DNA from: Desulfobacterales bacterium
Lineage (GTDB): Bacteria; Desulfobacterota; UBA8473
Direction: 5' to 3'
Assembly: GCA_016209225.1 (NCBI GenBank)
Contig: JACQWO010000051.1
Span: 53,122 to 117,121, forward strand
DNA length: 64,000 nt
Shown here: positions 48,070-56,993 of the stretch, one piece after another
How positions within the stretch are numbered: position 1 is the first letter of the stretch
Layout: each line of letters opens with the position of its first letter
The notes under the pieces: generated by a model
Seen by the model: the letters and a program-made list of their open reading frames with translations, nothing else
Told to the model about the DNA's origin: nothing
Databases searched by the model: none
Translations under genes and position numbers: made by a program

Positions 48070-48276
48070 ATGAGACAGATAATCATTTATCTTGGCGAGG
48101 ATGGTTACTGGGTAGCTGAATGTCCGAGCCTTCCTGGCTGTGTTAGTCAAGGAAAGACAAAGGAAGAGGCTATAATCAACATCAAGGAGGCAATTCAAGG
48201 GTATATCAAGGCATTAGAAGAAGATGGTCTTCCTGTTCCTGAAGAACATTTTGATGCTTTGCTGGTGGCTGTATGA
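48070..48276 (+). CDS. hicB: HicB-family antitoxin
   Basis: IYLGEDGYWVAECPSLPGCVSQGKTKEEAIINIKEAI. Confidence 0.88.
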   Translation: MRQIIIYLGEDGYWVAECPSLPGCVSQGKTKEEAIINIKEAIQGYIKALEEDGLPVPEEHFDALLVAV

Positions 48277-48494
48277 GTAAATTGCCACGAATATCCGGAC
48301 GGGAGTGTGTTAGGACATTGGGAAAAACCGGTTTTTATTTCAAACGACAGGAAGAAAGCCACATAGTTTTGCGGAGAAATAATCCCTTTGCACAGGTAAT
48401 TGTCCCTGACCACAAAGAATTGGACAGAGGCACTTTGAGAGCAATCATCAGACAGTCAGGACTTAGTGTAGATGGGTTTATAAAATTATTGTAA
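48273..48494 (+). CDS. hicA: HicA-family toxin
   Basis: RECVRTLGKTGFYFKRQEESHIVLRR...VPDHKELDRGTLRAIIRQSGLS; 4-nt overlap with hicB. Confidence 0.9.
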   Translation: MSKLPRISGRECVRTLGKTGFYFKRQEESHIVLRRNNPFAQVIVPDHKELDRGTLRAIIRQSGLSVDGFIKLL

Positions 48495-48570
48495 CATCAT
48501 AGAGATATAAATTAGAATGGGTATTTATTAAAGTATGAGAAAAAATTCGCCCGTTTGAGCATCCGCACAT

Positions 48571-48621: not shown

Positions 48622-50499
48622 ATGGATGGAAAATCTTTGGATATAACCGAAGAAAAGCTAAACAAACTTAAAGAAATTATCCCCGAAGCTTTCACAGAAA
48701 ATAAAATCGACTGGGAAAAACTGAAAGCCGCTCTGGGCGATGATATTGAATTCAAAAATGAACGGTATGTGTTGAACTGGGCAGGAAAATCCGACGCATT
48801 CAGGTCACTGCAATCCCCTTCCACAGCCACCCTTATTCCGTGCAGAGAAGAATCCGTCAATTTCGATAAAACGGAAAACATCTTTATTGAAGGCGAAAAC
48901 CTTGAAGTCTTAAAGGTGTTACAGAAGTCCTACTTTGGAAAAATCAAGATGATCTACATCGACCCGCCGTATAATACCGGCAATGACAATTTTATCTACC
49001 CCGATAAATTTGCCGAATCCAGGGAAGAGTATTTAAACAGAATCGGCGACAAGGACGAAACCGGGTTCATGACCCGTGAGGGTCTCTTCAGAAAGAACAG
49101 CAAAGACAGCGGCCATTATCACAGCAACTGGCTTTCCATGATGTATCCACGGTTGTTTCTGGCAAGGAATCTATTGCGGGATGACGGGGTGATTTTTGTA
49201 AGCATTGATGATAACGAGGTGCATAATTTAAGGCTTTTGATGAATGAGGTGTTTGGGGAGGAGAATTTTGTAGACACAATTTGTTGGAAGAAAAAATACG
49301 GTGGTGGAGCAAAAGAAAAATATTTAGTTTCTGTTCATGAATACATAGTAGTATATGCTAAAACCAAGATTGACTTACCAGAAATAATGATTGAATTTGA
49401 AGAGGAAAAAGCAAGACGTTTTTATAAATATAAAGATGAAAAGTTTGAAACACTTGGTTATTACAGGACACACCCTTTAGAAGCAGTAAAGAGCTTTGAT
49501 ATAAGAGAAAATTTGAGATTCCCTGTAGTCGCTCCAGATGGTACAGAAGTATATCCTAAGAGACAATGGAGGTGGAGTAAACAGAGATTTGAAGAAGCTT
49601 TGCTGAAAGATGAAGTAATTTTTAGTAAAAATAAAGATGGTGAATGGGTACTTTCTTCGAAACAATATCTTAATGAGGAAAATGGGGAGCAACGCAAGAC
49701 TAAAGCTCAATCATTAATAGATGATATTTTTACTCAAGAAGGAACAAAAGAAGTAGTCGATACTTTTGGAGATGCTAAAATATTTCCTTTTCCTAAACCG
49801 AATAGGCTTGTTAAAAAACTTATTGAAATTGGTGGACTTTATAATAACGACATCATCCTCGACTTCTTCGCAGGCTCCTCAACCGCCGCCCACGCTGTCT
49901 TAGCCCTTAATAAAGAAGATAACGGCAACCGCAAATTCATCTGCGTCCAACTCCCTGAAAAATGCGATGAAAACTCGGAGGCTTATAAAGCGGGTTATAA
50001 AACCATTGCGGAAATTGGAAAAGAGCGTATCCGCCGGGTAATCAAGAAAATCAAAGAAGAACAGGAAAGTCAGCTTGATTTGTACGGCAACGCGGAAAAA
50101 CAGGACTTGGGCTTTAAGGTCTTTAAGCTTCGGGAGTCCAACTTCAAAATCTGGCGCTCAAAAATAGATACCGAAGAAGAGCTTGTCGAGCAGTTGCAGC
50201 AACATCTTGAGCCTCTGGATGAGCACGCAAAAACAGAAGATGTTCTCTATGAATTCCTTCTGAAATCCGGTGTCCCCCTTACTGCAAGGATTGAAAAAAA
50301 GAACGGCTATCTACTCGTGAATGATAACGAAATAGCTTTGATGCTGGAAAAGGCGGACGATAAAATTGTCAAAAAAGTTATTGCAGAGAAACCCAATAAA
50401 GTAATAACCCTCGACAGGCTTTTTAAAAACAACGACCAATTAAAAACCAATACCGCATTGCAGATGAAGGATGCGGGGATTGAATTTAAGGCGGTGTGA
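48622..50499 (+). CDS. mod: Type III restriction-modification DNA methyltransferase (Mod)
   Basis: MIYIDPPYNTGNDNFIYPDKF; DIILDFFAGSSTAAHAVLALN. Confidence 0.93.
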   Translation: MDGKSLDITEEKLNKLKEIIPEAFTENKIDWEKLKAALGDDIEFKNERYVLNWAGKSDAFRSLQSPSTATLIPCREESVNFDKTENIFIEGENLEVLKVLQKSYFGKIKMIYIDPPYNTGNDNFIYPDKFAESREEYLNRIGDKDETGFMTREGLFRKNSKDSGHYHSNWLSMMYPRLFLARNLLRDDGVIFVSIDDNEVHNLRLLMNEVFGEENFVDTICWKKKYGGGAKEKYLVSVHEYIVVYAKTKIDLPEIMIEFEEEKARRFYKYKDEKFETLGYYRTHPLEAVKSFDIRENLRFPVVAPDGTEVYPKRQWRWSKQRFEEALLKDEVIFSKNKDGEWVLSSKQYLNEENGEQRKTKAQSLIDDIFTQEGTKEVVDTFGDAKIFPFPKPNRLVKKLIEIGGLYNNDIILDFFAGSSTAAHAVLALNKEDNGNRKFICVQLPEKCDENSEAYKAGYKTIAEIGKERIRRVIKKIKEEQESQLDLYGNAEKQDLGFKVFKLRESNFKIWRSKIDTEEELVEQLQQHLEPLDEHAKTEDVLYEFLLKSGVPLTARIEKKNGYLLVNDNEIALMLEKADDKIVKKVIAEKPNKVITLDRLFKNNDQLKTNTALQMKDAGIEFKAV

Positions 50500-50599
50500 G
50501 CTGTGAGTACTCTCATACCATTTTGCCGGTGTCGGCAAAATGGTTGATATGGGAAAAGGTGGGAGTAGGGAAGTACCTGACTGTTATAAGGCGGTGTGA
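50487..50599. repeat. 13-bp direct repeat TAAGGCGGTGTGA, 100 bp apart, enclosing a 12-bp-stem hairpin
   Basis: 50487-50499 and 50587-50599 identical; hairpin accattttgccg-gtgt-cggcaaaatggt at 50517-50544. Confidence 0.85.
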
Positions 50600-50602
50600 A
50601 TT

Positions 50603-53200
50603 ATGGATAATGAAAATAGCATTTTTAAAAATGGCTCTGTCTGGCTTAAGGCTGATTTTCACCTTCATACAAAGGCGGATAAAGAATTCAAGTATGATGG
50701 TGATGAGAATTATTTTGTAAGGGATTACGTTGAACAACTAAAAAAAGTTGACATAGGAACTGGCATAATCACAAATCACAACAAGTTTGATAAAGATGAA
50801 TTTGTTGAATTGAAGAGAAATGCCTTGAAGCATAATATTTGGCTGGTTCCAGGAGTAGAATTCTCATTAAAGGAAGGGTTTCATATATTGATAGCTTTTG
50901 AAGAGAAATGGTATCAAGGCCATGAAAGCAATATTCAAAGCTTCATATCAAAAGCTTTTTATGGAATAAGTAATTACGATTCCCCGCCATATCCGAACTC
51001 AAATTCTACATTGAAGGACACTGTTGAAGCCTTAGACAAGATTGGATACGATTACTTTATCGCCTTGGCACATCCCGATGCGGATAATGGACTTTTTAAG
51101 GTATTAACCGGGCGCACGCTTGAAGCTTTTATAAAAGAAGATTCTTTCAAAAAGATAATAGCAATTCAAAAAAGCGGAAACAAAGATAATTATGAACACA
51201 TTTGTAACTTAACAAATAGGCGAATTGCGTGTGTCGAGGGTACAGACAATGCTGAAGAGGGAATTAATTCGATTGGCAAAGGAAGGATTACTTATATAAA
51301 ATTAGGTGATTTTAATTTTGAAGCTCTGAAATATGCCCTCATTGATAATGATAACCGTATTAGACCAAAAGAAAAACCTGAAATAAGCAATGCCTTTATT
51401 AAGTCTATCTCGTTTGAAGGCGGTCTGCTTAACGGGAAAGAAATTCATTTTTCACCGGAACTTAATAATTTTATAGGCATCAGGGGAAGCGGGAAATCTT
51501 CAATTATTGAAATACTGCGCTATACACTTGGAATAACACTAGGTCGGCAAGCAAGTGACAGGGAGTATAAAAACGACCTTATAGAATATGTCCTTAAAAG
51601 CGGAGGCAAAGTCATCACTACTGTTGTAAATGAGCATAAAAAAGAATGTCGGATTGAAAAAATATACGGACAGAAAGAAGATATTTTTGAAAACGGCGCG
51701 CGAATTGACGCGCCAAATATAGATACAGTATTTAAAATCCCCGTTTACTTTGGGCAGAAAGATTTATCAAATAAACACATTGATTTTGAAGCAGACCTTG
51801 TTAAGAAACTTATTGGGAACAAACTTGAAAACATCAAATCAAAAATATCACGGAAGATTGTGGAAATTGAAGACATAATAAGCGTTTCAAAAAAATTGGA
51901 CAATCTCGATGAATTAAAAAAAGAGATAGCAGAGAATGTTAACAAAGCGACATACCAACTTAAATTATACAAAGACAAAGGCGTGGAAGACAAGCTGCGA
52001 CAACAGAGTAGATTTGATTCCGATGTAAGACGCTTTAACGAGTCATTAAATGAAGTATCAAAACTTAAAGACGAGCTTGAAGCCATTATAAACAATTTTC
52101 TGCCTTTTTTTAACCAGACAACATTTAAATCCGAAGAAAATGAAGACGTTTTTCTGGAAGCTGAAAACATATTCAAACAACTCGCAATAGAATTTAATAA
52201 ATTAAGCGATATAAAAACCGAAACAGAAAAACATGAAGCCGCGTTTAAAGAACTTTATAAAAAATTACAGGAAAAAAAGGAAAGTCTTAAAGAGGAATTC
52301 GCGAAAATAAAAAGGGAAATTGCCCTTCCTAATCTTAACCCCGATGAATTCCTTAAACTGAATCGGCAGATTGAAACCTCCAAATTGAAGCTGGTTGAAA
52401 TCGAAAAATTAGAAAAGAAGAAAATTGAATATCAAACGTCATTAAACAATAAAGTTTCAGAGCTAAATAACGTATGGCATGAAGAGTATAAAATTCTTGA
52501 AAAAGAGGTAGACAGGATAAATAAATATGAAAATTCTCTTTCAATTTCCGTTGAATATAAAGGCCGAAAAGATAATTTCGATGCAAAACTCAGGGAAATA
52601 TTTAAGGGTACGGGAATAAGGGGGGCGACTTACGATAGTATTACATCACAATATAAAGATTTTATTGAAATATACAGGGATATTGAAAATTTAAATTCCA
52701 CATTGAATATCAGCGAAAACCTGTTAGCCGAGTTTAAAAAACGATTTTACGAAAATCTTTTCAATTTATTGACATTCCGTGTTGAAGACAAATTTACTAT
52801 AAAATATAATGACAAACCTCTGAAAGACCATTCTCTCGGGCAGCGGGCTACAGCCTTGATACTATTTCTTCTTGCGCAAAAAGAGACTGATGTTTTAATT
52901 ATAGATCAGCCTGAAGATGACCTTGATAACCAGACGATTTACGAAGATGTAATTAAAGCGATTAAAGATTTAAAAGGCAGAATGCAGTTTATATTTGCCA
53001 CACATAATGCCAATATTCCGGTACTGGGTGACAGTGAAAAAATAATTACCTGTAGATATTCGGAATCAAAAATAGAGATTCATGGAGGCACAATAGACAG
53101 CCATGACACACAGAAACAGATGGTAACTATCATGGAGGGTGGGGAAGAAGCCTTTAATAGAAGAAAAAATATTTACGAATTATGGAGTCTAAAAAAATGA
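50603..53200 (+). CDS. PHP-domain + SMC-like AAA ATPase (TrlF-like)
   Basis: PHP: KADFHLHTKADKEF...TNHNKFD; Walker A IGIRGSGKSSIIEIL; coiled-coil; C-term SLGQRATALILFLLAQKETDVLIIDQPEDDLDNQTI. Confidence 0.88.
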   Translation: MDNENSIFKNGSVWLKADFHLHTKADKEFKYDGDENYFVRDYVEQLKKVDIGTGIITNHNKFDKDEFVELKRNALKHNIWLVPGVEFSLKEGFHILIAFEEKWYQGHESNIQSFISKAFYGISNYDSPPYPNSNSTLKDTVEALDKIGYDYFIALAHPDADNGLFKVLTGRTLEAFIKEDSFKKIIAIQKSGNKDNYEHICNLTNRRIACVEGTDNAEEGINSIGKGRITYIKLGDFNFEALKYALIDNDNRIRPKEKPEISNAFIKSISFEGGLLNGKEIHFSPELNNFIGIRGSGKSSIIEILRYTLGITLGRQASDREYKNDLIEYVLKSGGKVITTVVNEHKKECRIEKIYGQKEDIFENGARIDAPNIDTVFKIPVYFGQKDLSNKHIDFEADLVKKLIGNKLENIKSKISRKIVEIEDIISVSKKLDNLDELKKEIAENVNKATYQLKLYKDKGVEDKLRQQSRFDSDVRRFNESLNEVSKLKDELEAIINNFLPFFNQTTFKSEENEDVFLEAENIFKQLAIEFNKLSDIKTETEKHEAAFKELYKKLQEKKESLKEEFAKIKREIALPNLNPDEFLKLNRQIETSKLKLVEIEKLEKKKIEYQTSLNNKVSELNNVWHEEYKILEKEVDRINKYENSLSISVEYKGRKDNFDAKLREIFKGTGIRGATYDSITSQYKDFIEIYRDIENLNSTLNISENLLAEFKKRFYENLFNLLTFRVEDKFTIKYNDKPLKDHSLGQRATALILFLLAQKETDVLIIDQPEDDLDNQTIYEDVIKAIKDLKGRMQFIFATHNANIPVLGDSEKIITCRYSESKIEIHGGTIDSHDTQKQMVTIMEGGEEAFNRRKNIYELWSLKK

Positions 53201-54372
53201 ATGCTATTGAACTGCTCGATATAATAAACACGGGTGAGACAAGCCGGGTGCAGTTTAAGGAGAAAATGCCGCACCGGGATTCAATCGCGGCTGAAATGGT
53301 GGCTTTTTCCAATACAATGGGTGGAATAATTCTGTTTGGCGTCAAAGATAAAACCGGTGAAATAGCAGGGCTTTCTTATGAAGAAATCCATAGTTACAGC
53401 CAGAACATAGGTAATTATGCTACCGGAAATATTGTTCCCGGTATCTATATAAAGACAGAAGTTGTAACTGTCGATTATAGTGGAGAGAAAAAGATACTTG
53501 TCGTTTATGTTGATGAGGGGATAAACAAACCATACAAGGATAAAAACGGAGATATTTGGGTTAAGCAGGGTTCTGATAAACGGAGAGTTACCGATAATTC
53601 GGAGATACTTCGCCTTTACCAGCAAGGCAGCCATTTACTGGCTGATGAAATGGAAGTATATGATACTTCAGTTGATGATATCAATGAAAAATTATTCCGG
53701 GAATATTTTAAAAAGGAATTTCATTCTTCCATTGAAGAAAAAGGGCTTACTTTTGAAAAAGCGTTGAAAGCTAAAAAAGTATTGCGTAATGAAAAATTGA
53801 CGTTGGCTGGATTATTGTTTTTTGGAAATAATCCGCAAAATATAAAACCGGCTTTTTGTGTTAAAGCCGTTTCATTTTTTGGAAATTCCATTTCGGGAAA
53901 AGATTATAGAAACAAACCGCAGGATTTGGAAGGAACAATACCTGATTTATTTGACAAAGGGATTAAATTTATTGAATCAAATTTACGGCATATCCAAAAA
54001 AAACAGAATTTCAATTCTATCGGGATTCTGGAAATATCAAGAGACGCTCTTGTCGAGCTTTTCGTAAATGCTTTAGTGCACAGGGATTATTTTAAAAATG
54101 CTCCTATCCGTATATTGATATTTGATAGCAGAGTAGAAATTATAAGTCCAGGAAAATTACCAAATGGCCTCACTGTTGAAGAAGCAATATTTGGTAATCC
54201 GGTAATTAGAAACCCTCAACTTGTGAAATTTAGTTTTCATACACTTCCTTTCAGTGGTATTGGGACTGGTTTAACTCGGGCATTGGAGGAGCAGCCCGAC
54301 ATTGAGTTCATTAATGACACAGAAGGTGAACAATTTATAGTTACAATACCAAGGCCGGAGACAAATAATTGA
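53182..54372 (+). CDS. AlbA_2 (Schlafen-like) domain protein with C-terminal HATPase-like domain
   Basis: ETSRVQFKEKMPHRDSIAAEMVAFSNTMGGIILFGVKD; NALVHRDYFKNAPIRILIFDSRVEIISPGKLPNGLT. Confidence 0.88.
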   Translation: MESKKMNAIELLDIINTGETSRVQFKEKMPHRDSIAAEMVAFSNTMGGIILFGVKDKTGEIAGLSYEEIHSYSQNIGNYATGNIVPGIYIKTEVVTVDYSGEKKILVVYVDEGINKPYKDKNGDIWVKQGSDKRRVTDNSEILRLYQQGSHLLADEMEVYDTSVDDINEKLFREYFKKEFHSSIEEKGLTFEKALKAKKVLRNEKLTLAGLLFFGNNPQNIKPAFCVKAVSFFGNSISGKDYRNKPQDLEGTIPDLFDKGIKFIESNLRHIQKKQNFNSIGILEISRDALVELFVNALVHRDYFKNAPIRILIFDSRVEIISPGKLPNGLTVEEAIFGNPVIRNPQLVKFSFHTLPFSGIGTGLTRALEEQPDIEFINDTEGEQFIVTIPRPETNN

Positions 54373-56993
54373 AGCTCCACTTCGACCCGAACCAGCAATT
54401 CCAGCTCGACGCAATTAATTCAATAATCGGAATATTCGAAGGCCAGCCGTTAAACCGCGGTGATTTTGATTTTTCCATCACCCATGCAAGCTATCTCTTT
54501 CAGGAAGGCGGCATCGGCAACCGCTTGACGCTCGGCGAAGAACAGATTCTTGAAAATGTAAAAGCGATTCAAGAAAGAAACGAACTTGTTGTTTCGACAA
54601 AACTGGACGGCATGAATTTTTCCGTTGAGATGGAAACAGGCACGGGCAAGACTTATGTGTATCTACGCACCATCCACGAATTGAATAAAAAATGCGGGTT
54701 TAAAAAATTTGTCATAGTCGTTCCCTCCATTGCCATCCGTGAGGGCGTGTTAAAGAATCTTGAAATCACCTTTGAGCATTTCCAGAACCTTTATGACAGA
54801 ACCCCTGTTAATTTTGCAGTGTACGACTCCAGACGGGTTTCCAATTTAAGGAATTTTGCCGTCAGCAACACCATTCAGATTCTTGTCATCAATATCGATT
54901 CCTTTGCCAAGGATGAGAACATCATCAACAAGCCCAATGACAAACTGACCGGCAAAAGGCCGGTTGAATTTATTCAGGCGACGTGTCCGATCGTGATCGT
55001 GGATGAACCGCAGAACATGGAAACCGAGATAAGAAGAAACGCGATTGCAAATCTGAACTCGCTTTGCACCCTGCGCTATTCGGCCACTCATACCAGCCGC
55101 TATAATATGGTTTACAGTCTTGACCCTGTAAAAGCCTACGATCTGGGTCTGGTCAAACAGATTGAAGTGGATTCAATCGTTACGGAAAATGATTTTAATG
55201 AGGCGTTTGTCCGCCTTGAAAAGCTAATCGCCGCGAAAACAAAAACATCCGCGAAAATAAAAATCGATGTAAATACAAAGGACAGTGTCAAGCGAAAGAC
55301 CGTTACCGCGAAAATTGGCGATGATTTATACGATTTGTCCAACAAACGGGAAATATACAAAAACGGTTATATAATAAATGGCATTGATGTGGCTGACGGT
55401 TTTATTGAGCTTTCAAACGGCGAAACCGTGTTTGCCGGGGATACATTGGGCGGTCTTTCGGATGAGGTTATGAAAGTCCAGATAAAAAAGACCGTAGAGG
55501 AACATTTCTCAAAGGAAAGAAGATTTAAAGATAAAGGGATAAAGGTACTTTCACTTTTCTTTATCGACAGGGTGGCAAACTATCGCGCTTATGACGCGGA
55601 CGGTAATCCGGTTAAAGGTAAGTTTGCTCTCTGGTTTGAGGATATTTATAGAGAAGTTTCCGGCAAAGACTCTTATAAAGGCCTGATTCCTTTTGAAACG
55701 CATGAAATTCATAACGGCTATTTTTCACAGGATAAAAAAGGCAAATGGAGTGATACAAAGGGTAATACACTGGCGGATGACGATACGTTTAGACTGATTA
55801 TGAAGGATAAAGAACGGCTTCTGGACGTCAATGAGCCCTTACGTTTTATTTTCAGTCATTCAGCTTTGCGGGAAGGCTGGGACAACCCCAATGTTTTTCA
55901 GATTTGCACCTTGAACGAGACGCACTCAGAGCTGAAAAAACGGCAGGAAATCGGGAGGGGATTGCGGCTTTCCGTAAATCAGGAAGGCTTTCGCATACAG
56001 GATAACAATATTAACCGTCTGACAGTTATCGCGAATGAGGCCTATGAAGATTTTGCCAGACAACTTCAAACGGAAATTGAAGAGGATTGCGGAGTATCCT
56101 TTAAAGGCAGAATCAAAAACAAGCAGGAACGAGCGACTGTCAAATATCGCAAAGGATTTGAACTGGATGAGAAATTCAAGGAGATTTGGGACAAGATAAA
56201 ACATCAGACAACCTATAAAGTTGATTATGATACGTCCGATCTCATTAGAAAGGCATCAAAAGCGCTCAACCAAATGCCTGAAATAAAAAAAGCCGTGATT
56301 AAAGCGACAAAAACGGCCATCAAGTTTGACGATGCCGGTATTGTGGCCGATATAAAAACATCATATGTCACAGCGTTTGACGGGGTTTTCGGAATACCCG
56401 ATGTGCTTTTTTACATTCAGGAAAGAACGGGACTCACCCGTTCAACAATTCTTGAAATTCTATTAAAATCAGGCAGAACCGGCGACGTAATGATCAATCC
56501 TCAGCTATTCCTCGATAATGCCGTTTCGGCTGTTAACGATGTATTAATCGATCTGATGATTGACGGGATTAAATACGAGAAAATAGGCGCAAAAGAATAT
56601 GAGATGCGGTTATTTGAAGAATATGATATTCATGTGAACGACTTGACTTTTACTATATCAAAACAAGATAAGACCATTTACAGTAATCTTGTGCCACTTG
56701 ATTCTAACGTGGAATATGATTTTGCCGGAGAATGCGAAACCCGCGATGATATAGAATATTATTTCAAGCTACCTTCCTGGTTTAAAATCCAAACGCCCAT
56801 CGGGACTTATAATCCCGACTGGGCTTTGACAAAAAAGAATGAAAGAACCGTTTACTTTGTTGCCGAGACAAAATCGGCAGGGCAGGAATTAAAAACAAGC
56901 GAGAGAAGAAAAATAAAGTGCGGTCATGCGCATTTTAACGAGTTTGAAGATGTAGAATACAGACAGGTTTCAACAGTGGGAGAATTGAATTAA
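54369..56993 (+). CDS. res: Type III restriction endonuclease subunit Res
   Basis: VEMETGTGKTYVYLRTIHEL; IVIVDEPQNME; C-term YNPDWALTKK..VYFVAETKS PD-(D/E)XK-like. Confidence 0.93.
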   Translation: MKLHFDPNQQFQLDAINSIIGIFEGQPLNRGDFDFSITHASYLFQEGGIGNRLTLGEEQILENVKAIQERNELVVSTKLDGMNFSVEMETGTGKTYVYLRTIHELNKKCGFKKFVIVVPSIAIREGVLKNLEITFEHFQNLYDRTPVNFAVYDSRRVSNLRNFAVSNTIQILVINIDSFAKDENIINKPNDKLTGKRPVEFIQATCPIVIVDEPQNMETEIRRNAIANLNSLCTLRYSATHTSRYNMVYSLDPVKAYDLGLVKQIEVDSIVTENDFNEAFVRLEKLIAAKTKTSAKIKIDVNTKDSVKRKTVTAKIGDDLYDLSNKREIYKNGYIINGIDVADGFIELSNGETVFAGDTLGGLSDEVMKVQIKKTVEEHFSKERRFKDKGIKVLSLFFIDRVANYRAYDADGNPVKGKFALWFEDIYREVSGKDSYKGLIPFETHEIHNGYFSQDKKGKWSDTKGNTLADDDTFRLIMKDKERLLDVNEPLRFIFSHSALREGWDNPNVFQICTLNETHSELKKRQEIGRGLRLSVNQEGFRIQDNNINRLTVIANEAYEDFARQLQTEIEEDCGVSFKGRIKNKQERATVKYRKGFELDEKFKEIWDKIKHQTTYKVDYDTSDLIRKASKALNQMPEIKKAVIKATKTAIKFDDAGIVADIKTSYVTAFDGVFGIPDVLFYIQERTGLTRSTILEILLKSGRTGDVMINPQLFLDNAVSAVNDVLIDLMIDGIKYEKIGAKEYEMRLFEEYDIHVNDLTFTISKQDKTIYSNLVPLDSNVEYDFAGECETRDDIEYYFKLPSWFKIQTPIGTYNPDWALTKKNERTVYFVAETKSAGQELKTSERRKIKCGHAHFNEFEDVEYRQVSTVGELN

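Follow-up and report, generated by a model that had tools for sequence, protein, structure and literature searches.

Accessory genes embedded in type I restriction-modification (R-M) and BREX operons are known, including genes for Schlafen-HATPase-wHTH proteins in BREX (PMC4619093, PMC11411939, PMC12707154, PMC12839542). PrrC, RloF, other R-linked ORFs, TgvAB and BrxU lie between specificity or modification genes and restriction genes, and TgvAB is a two-gene, separately active module (PMC11411939, PMC4619093); their proteins differ from those analysed here, and most descriptions concern type I R-M and BREX. The Schlafen-HATPase-wHTH proteins combine an AlbA_2 domain with a minimal histidine-kinase ATPase domain inside BREX operons and were treated as RNases, with PHP domains unmentioned (PMC12839542). 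Ppl, described as a single-gene system, joins an N-terminal PHP domain to an NTPase domain and is reported to be a ssDNA 3'-5' exonuclease that is set free when nucleotides are depleted and supplied with substrate by 3'-OH ends, with NTP inhibition of this activity stated for E. coli Ppl (2026 review, PMC12904381). The TrlF family (NCBIfam NF045780) has a PHP + ABC layout and many annotated plasmid copies; its family model mentions neither a partner nor a host operon, and no paper concerning the family was found in the literature searched. The same search, outside which lay most subscription papers and all of bioRxiv, returned no account of TrlF as a partner of embedded Schlafen proteins, no record of such a pair occupying a type III slot and no mention of cargo fossils.

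The stretch of Desulfobacterales DNA analysed here (64,000 nt, hereafter the window) carries a type III R-M operon on the forward strand with two genes inserted between its subunits. The left border of this cargo slot is mod (48622–50499, 625 aa), a type III DNA methyltransferase gene (PADLOC MTase_III, 660 bits; Pfam N6_N4_Mtase) with intact motifs DPPY at residue 114 and FAGSS at 416. The right border is res (54369–56993, 874 aa, TTG start), which encodes the type III restriction subunit (PADLOC REase_III, 1010 bits; PF19778, E 2e-32) with helicase motifs GTGKT at 91 and DEPQ at 212 and a PD-(D/E)XK nuclease motif, PD..AETK, from 816. N6-methylase motifs in Mod and helicase and PD-(D/E)XK motifs in Res thus occur in one operon, and the host R-M system looks functional because the catalytic motifs of both subunits are present. 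Just upstream of mod (48070–48495, forward strand) we also observed a small gene pair that resembles HicB/HicA, judged by eye, reading MRQIIIYLGEDGYWVAECPSLPGC... and then MSKLPRISGRECVRTLGKTGF....

Between mod and res lie a 103-nt spacer (50500–50602), trlF (50603–53200, 865 aa, PHP + ABC/SMC-like ATPase) and albA2 (53182–54372, 396 aa, Schlafen AlbA_2 domain + GHKL-type ATPase domain), all on the forward strand. The initial annotation, made from the sequence alone, had described an 865-aa protein with a PHP motif, a Walker A motif and an ABC-type C-terminus at this position, and we found the ORF to be intact and the motifs to be in place. The ORF coordinates also bear out overlaps of 19 nt between trlF and albA2 and of 4 nt between albA2 and res, so that the proposed translational coupling holds for trlF-albA2-res; it does not hold for mod and trlF, because 103 nt separate them. 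The trlF gene is present in a single copy in its own genome, and a second species of the genus (G075) has a 93%-identical copy with unchanged gene order. This copy, together with the recurrence of the order in other phyla, argues that the four-gene arrangement is not due to chance.

The ATPase matched the TrlF family model along its length (510.9 bits against a cut-off of 350, residues 10–858) and scored 185 bits against the Ppl equivalog model NF042955 (also PADLOC Ppl), for which the cut-off is 1000, and is therefore a relative of Ppl rather than Ppl itself. Judged from sequence, the TrlF family is a diverged, distant relative of the Ppl defence nuclease, with which it shares an N-terminal PHP domain joined to an NTPase; its activity may differ from that of Ppl, as it scores far below the equivalog cut-off. 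In contrast to the single-gene Ppl system, the window TrlF has a conserved partner gene. The protein comprises an N-terminal PHP domain (residues about 13–255), an ABC/SMC-like head split between residues about 265–385 and 720–830, and one coiled-coil arm (about 395–642), with the motifs DFHLH at 18, Walker A GIRGSGKS at 292, LGQ, and DQPEDDLDN at 768. An AlphaFold model (mean pLDDT 86.5) placed an alpha/beta domain at the N-terminal PHP motifs, followed by the split ABC head and the coiled coil, so that motifs, invariant columns and model agree on a PHP domain fused to an ABC ATPase. H20, H22, H59, E86, H94, H157 and D215 were invariant in 76 aligned TrlF sequences and resemble PHP metal ligands, each assignment being inferred from known PHP enzymes. 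The family profile, compared with solved structures, recovered TM0559 (E 3e-4), which we take to be a PHP protein; the window PHP domain alone, searched as a single sequence, gave only chance matches to solved structures. Foldseek matched the model to the heads of MukB, Smc, JetC, RecF and Rad50, and the predicted head and coiled coil thus resemble those of Wadjet JetC and Rad50. Unlike Wadjet, Lamassu and Rad50, TrlF has a coiled coil of only about 250 residues, an N-terminal nuclease fusion and no adjoining Jet partner genes; no kleisin-type or nuclease partner subunits were found, and AlbA2 was the only conserved neighbour. TrlF relatives also occur in phage records (H41–H44), with whole-length matches in Listeria phage records and a partial match in a Yersinia phage record.

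The partner protein matched PF04326 (SLFN_AlbA_2, E 4e-20) and PF13749 (HATPase_c_4, E 7e-10), and its predicted model (pLDDT 90) was related by Foldseek to SLFN14, SLFN11 and SLFN13. It has a GHKL-type ATP site (E292-N296-HRD, GIGTG) and, in contrast to the Schlafen-HATPase-wHTH proteins of BREX, no C-terminal wHTH, as TrlF partners end after the ATPase domain. A further difference lies at the Schlafen catalytic site. The catalytic acidic triad of human SLFN14 is, as we assume here, E206, E211 and D249; in the window AlbA2 the profile alignment showed that E19 and D56 are kept and that the E211 equivalent is Gln24. An E211A mutation of SLFN14 features in PDB entry titles. Gln at this position was near-invariant in 68 AlbA2 partners. 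Counted over loci, AlbA2 proteins paired with a PHP-intact TrlF had Gln in 73 cases and Glu in 2, as against Gln in 2 and Glu or Asp in about 17 of the unpaired AlbA2 proteins with a readable motif (Fisher p about 1e-14, a value that ignores shared ancestry). Such a Glu-to-Gln change need not abolish the nuclease activity of AlbA2.

A TrlF-like subfamily in which QxN replaces the PHP HxH motif and the other conserved residues are kept (L046, L048, L049, L050, L052) was also observed. The AlbA2 partner of this PHP-degenerate subfamily keeps Glu in all four readable loci, which belong to one clade, and AlbA2 may have taken over as the nuclease in these loci. Reciprocal loss of the two active sites, PHP and Schlafen, is not put forward as an established rule, as the PHP-degenerate group is a single clade and locus L045 keeps both sites.

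To place the pair in its wider context, 84,980 species genomes were scanned with a TrlF profile, and the best-scoring 80 loci, from many bacterial phyla and from archaea, were combined with loci from genomes of the phylum and from plasmids into a set of 98 non-redundant TrlF loci. AlbA2 was the next gene in 84 of the 98, and the two genes overlapped in 70 of these 84, most often by 13, 22, 19 or 4 nt; as the genome loci are the 80 best-scoring ones and several contexts come from metagenome-assembled contigs, such fractions are not frequencies in nature. The linkage of TrlF to AlbA2 is stronger than its linkage to any host system. AlbA2 may nevertheless not be essential, because about one-seventh of the TrlF loci are without an adjoining AlbA2 gene. 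TrlF without AlbA2 was observed on conjugative plasmids of Listeria and Enterobacteriaceae (L034, L035, L036). The two halves of the pair also differ in divergence. Between the window and G075, trlF is mostly 91–98% identical, falling to about 80% within the coiled coil, and res is about 85–95% identical, whereas albA2 (window 53222–54372 against L038 12057–13256) is only about 65–76% identical throughout; conversely, a Neomarinimicrobiota operon matches the window at 83% identity in AlbA2 and at only 64% in TrlF. The albA2 gene has been exchanged independently of its neighbours.

Mod and/or Res homologues flanked the pair in 13 loci besides the window, so that the ATPase is far from being next to mod and res only here. 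The full order Mod-TrlF-AlbA2-Res was found in seven of these (L054, L055, L058, L077, L084, L086 and L121), some of which contain an extra small ORF and one of which, L121, has a broken AlbA2; the remaining type III loci stop at a contig border or contain a broken gene. By record title, the type III hosts belong to Deltaproteobacteria, Neomarinimicrobiota, Planctomycetota, Bacteroidota, Armatimonadota, Nitrospirota and an Acholeplasmataceae genome, and the 4-nt AlbA2/Res overlap is repeated in other type III loci. Of the initial annotation, the analysis supports a PHP/SMC-like ATPase affiliated with defence, its recurrence with Mod, AlbA2 and Res, and the tightly overlapping genes. The pair was also found in type I R-M operons, in the orders HsdM-HsdS-TrlF-AlbA2-HsdR (L107) and HsdS-TrlF-AlbA2-HsdR (L126), after HsdS (L118), after HsdM (L103) or before HsdR (L097, L119). 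In BREX it was placed as PglX-TrlF-AlbA2-PglZ (L101) or PglXI-TrlF-AlbA2-BrxHI-PglZ (L113, L123). Further copies precede PglZ (L044), follow a type IIG enzyme (L039) or adjoin GajA or GajB of Gabija (L045, L048). The Pfam families of 48 close upstream neighbours included N6_N4_Mtase (15), Methylase_S (5), N6_Mtase (4) and Eco57I (3), and those of 40 downstream neighbours included ResIII (14) and HSDR_N (4). The pair is embedded between modification or specificity genes and restriction or effector genes, and the cargo varies among related operons. On the TrlF tree the type III label needed at least three changes, and close relatives came from different phyla, so that the pair must move horizontally and has been gained or lost by type III operons repeatedly.

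Searching the phylum with the window Res returned about 20 loci with most of Res, a subset of which was read. Within the window's own genus (G039, G075 and G137), the Mod-Res slot is occupied by the TrlF-AlbA2 pair in the window and G075, by a HATPase with a Dcm-type methylase and Vsr in G137, and by a Bro-N/DinD gene in G039. A Bro-N gene also fills the slot of G173. Elsewhere it holds Fic (G133), YhcG (G356) or a DUF1016 fragment (G140), and in G249, G221, G208, G210 and G361, including a more distant genome, it is empty. When the window is compared with G137, the DNA stays alike up to the stop codon of mod and becomes so again from the first bases of res onward, the pattern of a clean cargo swap. 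We also observed that G137 and G039 (L164 3564–4439 and L180 7600–8386) share the same internal mod deletion, with the equivalent of window 48660–49812 missing, and that res is interrupted or cut short in both, with an in-frame TAG in G137, where the new cargo is open. The shared mod deletion and the TAG codon indicate that cargo is kept in decaying R-M operons. The window genome has, in addition, a second, distant type III R-M system (L176, G000 contig C51, 8000–22000; Res 40–43% identical), in whose Mod-Res gap lies the gene for an unpaired AlbA2/HATPase protein of 669 aa that retains the Schlafen Glu (ESVDLECK). In G075 a 120-aa ORF (L038 9114–9476) between mod and trlF forms a further layer of insertion in the gap.

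The 103-nt spacer before trlF reads SYHFAGVGKMVDMGKGGSREVPD in one frame. Compared with the Bro-N protein in the G173 slot, it gave a protein-level score of 89, which none of 300 shuffles equalled (best 44), and 31 bp matched the G173 Bro-N DNA at 93.5% (E 2.5e-10). The spacer represents the remains of an earlier Bro-N/DinD-like cargo gene, a fossil that records cargo turnover at the window slot. Directly before trlF, the spacer ends by repeating the final 12 nt of mod (AAGGCGGTGTGA). G137 likewise keeps two pieces of the same Bro-N gene, including its last 60 bp (83%, E 6.5e-15), after which the 3' end of mod is repeated directly before the new cargo. The most economical account is that the Bro-N/DinD cargo was lost and that the new cargo arrived attached to the tail of a donor mod; the replacement would have proceeded by recombination of one type III operon with another, a step that we infer. 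A palindrome in the spacer, TTTGCCGGTGTCGGCAAA, was considered as a recombination hairpin or REP element and rejected, as it is not repeated in the genome; it is explained by the FAGxGK codons of the Bro-N fossil. The G075 spacer was also rejected as a Bro-N fossil (at least 22 of 300 shuffles scored equally well), and the 120-aa ORF is found there instead.

Taken together, sequence comparison shows that the pair is conserved with overlapping genes in its own right, that it occupies the equivalent position in several modification-based systems, and that the slot exchanges cargo and, in the window, formerly housed a Bro-N/DinD gene. TrlF-AlbA2 is probably a portable anti-phage cassette of two genes that has settled in a slot for accessory genes between Mod and Res of a type III operon. 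A more tentative suggestion, which we put at slightly under even, is that the cassette works largely by itself as an exonuclease of the Ppl kind, regulated by a Schlafen/GHKL protein with an altered nuclease site. TrlF would dimerise via its ABC head and load on or thread DNA ends, and its PHP domain would degrade phage DNA from 3' ends, as reported for its distant relative Ppl; by the same analogy, it would be held off by NTPs and released once a phage depletes nucleotides and makes ends. AlbA2/GHKL, with its catalytic Glu changed to Gln, would not be an RNase but a regulator that binds nucleic acid and senses ATP. A place in the operon of a modification-based system would provide co-expression and cover against phages that evade or block Mod-Res. 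It would add a layer against phages that have protected DNA or anti-restriction proteins, an argument made previously for TgvAB and BrxU (PMC11411939), and such cooperation would be complementary, not obligate. A stronger proposal appears doubtful: that the pair is a plug-in module specialised for modification-based operons, with the nuclease task swapped between partners and the Mod-Res gap as a true exchange site. Under that proposal an active PHP domain would go with a Schlafen site converted from Glu to Gln as a sensor, a degenerate PHP domain would go with a Schlafen site that stays catalytic, and recombination between operons would replace cargo, leaving cargo fossils and tandem mod-tail copies.

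The initial annotation had suggested a composite defence system of the four genes, in which the ATPase-nuclease would back up restriction. As one machine, Mod would recognise the site and TrlF-AlbA2 and Res would be joint effectors. The recurrence of the four-gene order in several phyla and the conserved overlaps, including the 4 nt between albA2 and res, agree with this view, but most loci have the pair without Mod-Res, some of them in type I R-M or BREX; Mod-Res systems with a 78–91% identical Res carry other, unrelated cargo or none; the divergence of Mod, TrlF and Res is out of step (in L084, Res is 82% and TrlF 45% identical); and G137 has open cargo ORFs in an operon whose R-M genes are broken. 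Any composite role of the four genes is a less simple reading, and one four-part machine seems quite improbable. The G137 operon also weighs against a guard or back-up role, in which the pair would sense failure of host restriction, for example when a phage anti-restriction protein binds Mod-Res, HsdMS or PglX/PglZ, and would then fire. Such a role has precedents in PrrC in EcoprrI (PMC12707154) and in PARIS for Ocr (PMC12839542), and would fit a pair that adjoins modification or specificity genes in many different restriction systems. However, these hosts (type I, III, IIG and BREX) are unrelated and no common protein partner is evident, many loci have the pair away from R-M, and TrlF occurs alone on Listeria and E. 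coli plasmids, so that we regard a guard as unlikely.

The slot could also be no more than a site in a defence operon at which genes can land safely, harmless to the host genes and without any functional link to them. The very mixed cargo, including Fic and YhcG, and the frequently empty slot would be expected in that case; flush, overlapping junctions on both sides and repeated use of modification-based operons suggest instead selection for co-expression, and make the absence of any link distinctly unlikely. A last possibility assigns the effector role to AlbA2, as a Schlafen-type RNase causing abortive infection, with TrlF as a sensor of DNA ends. Schlafen-HATPase proteins have been reported as back-up RNases in BREX loci (PMC12839542), and the Glu-keeping partners of the TrlF-like subfamily lacking the PHP HxH motif agree with this assignment, but in the window type the PHP domain is intact and more than 90% of partners have Gln at the Schlafen site, the reverse of what an AlbA2 effector predicts, and we consider it very improbable here.

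One two-gene module thus recurs at corresponding places in operons of four kinds, namely type III, type I, BREX and type IIG. The sequence record of cargo replacement in the type III slot provides a testable case of module exchange, and reading the Mod-Res gap offers a way to find new defence genes. TrlF, a large ATPase family, gains a proposed partner whose Schlafen active site appears to have been converted.
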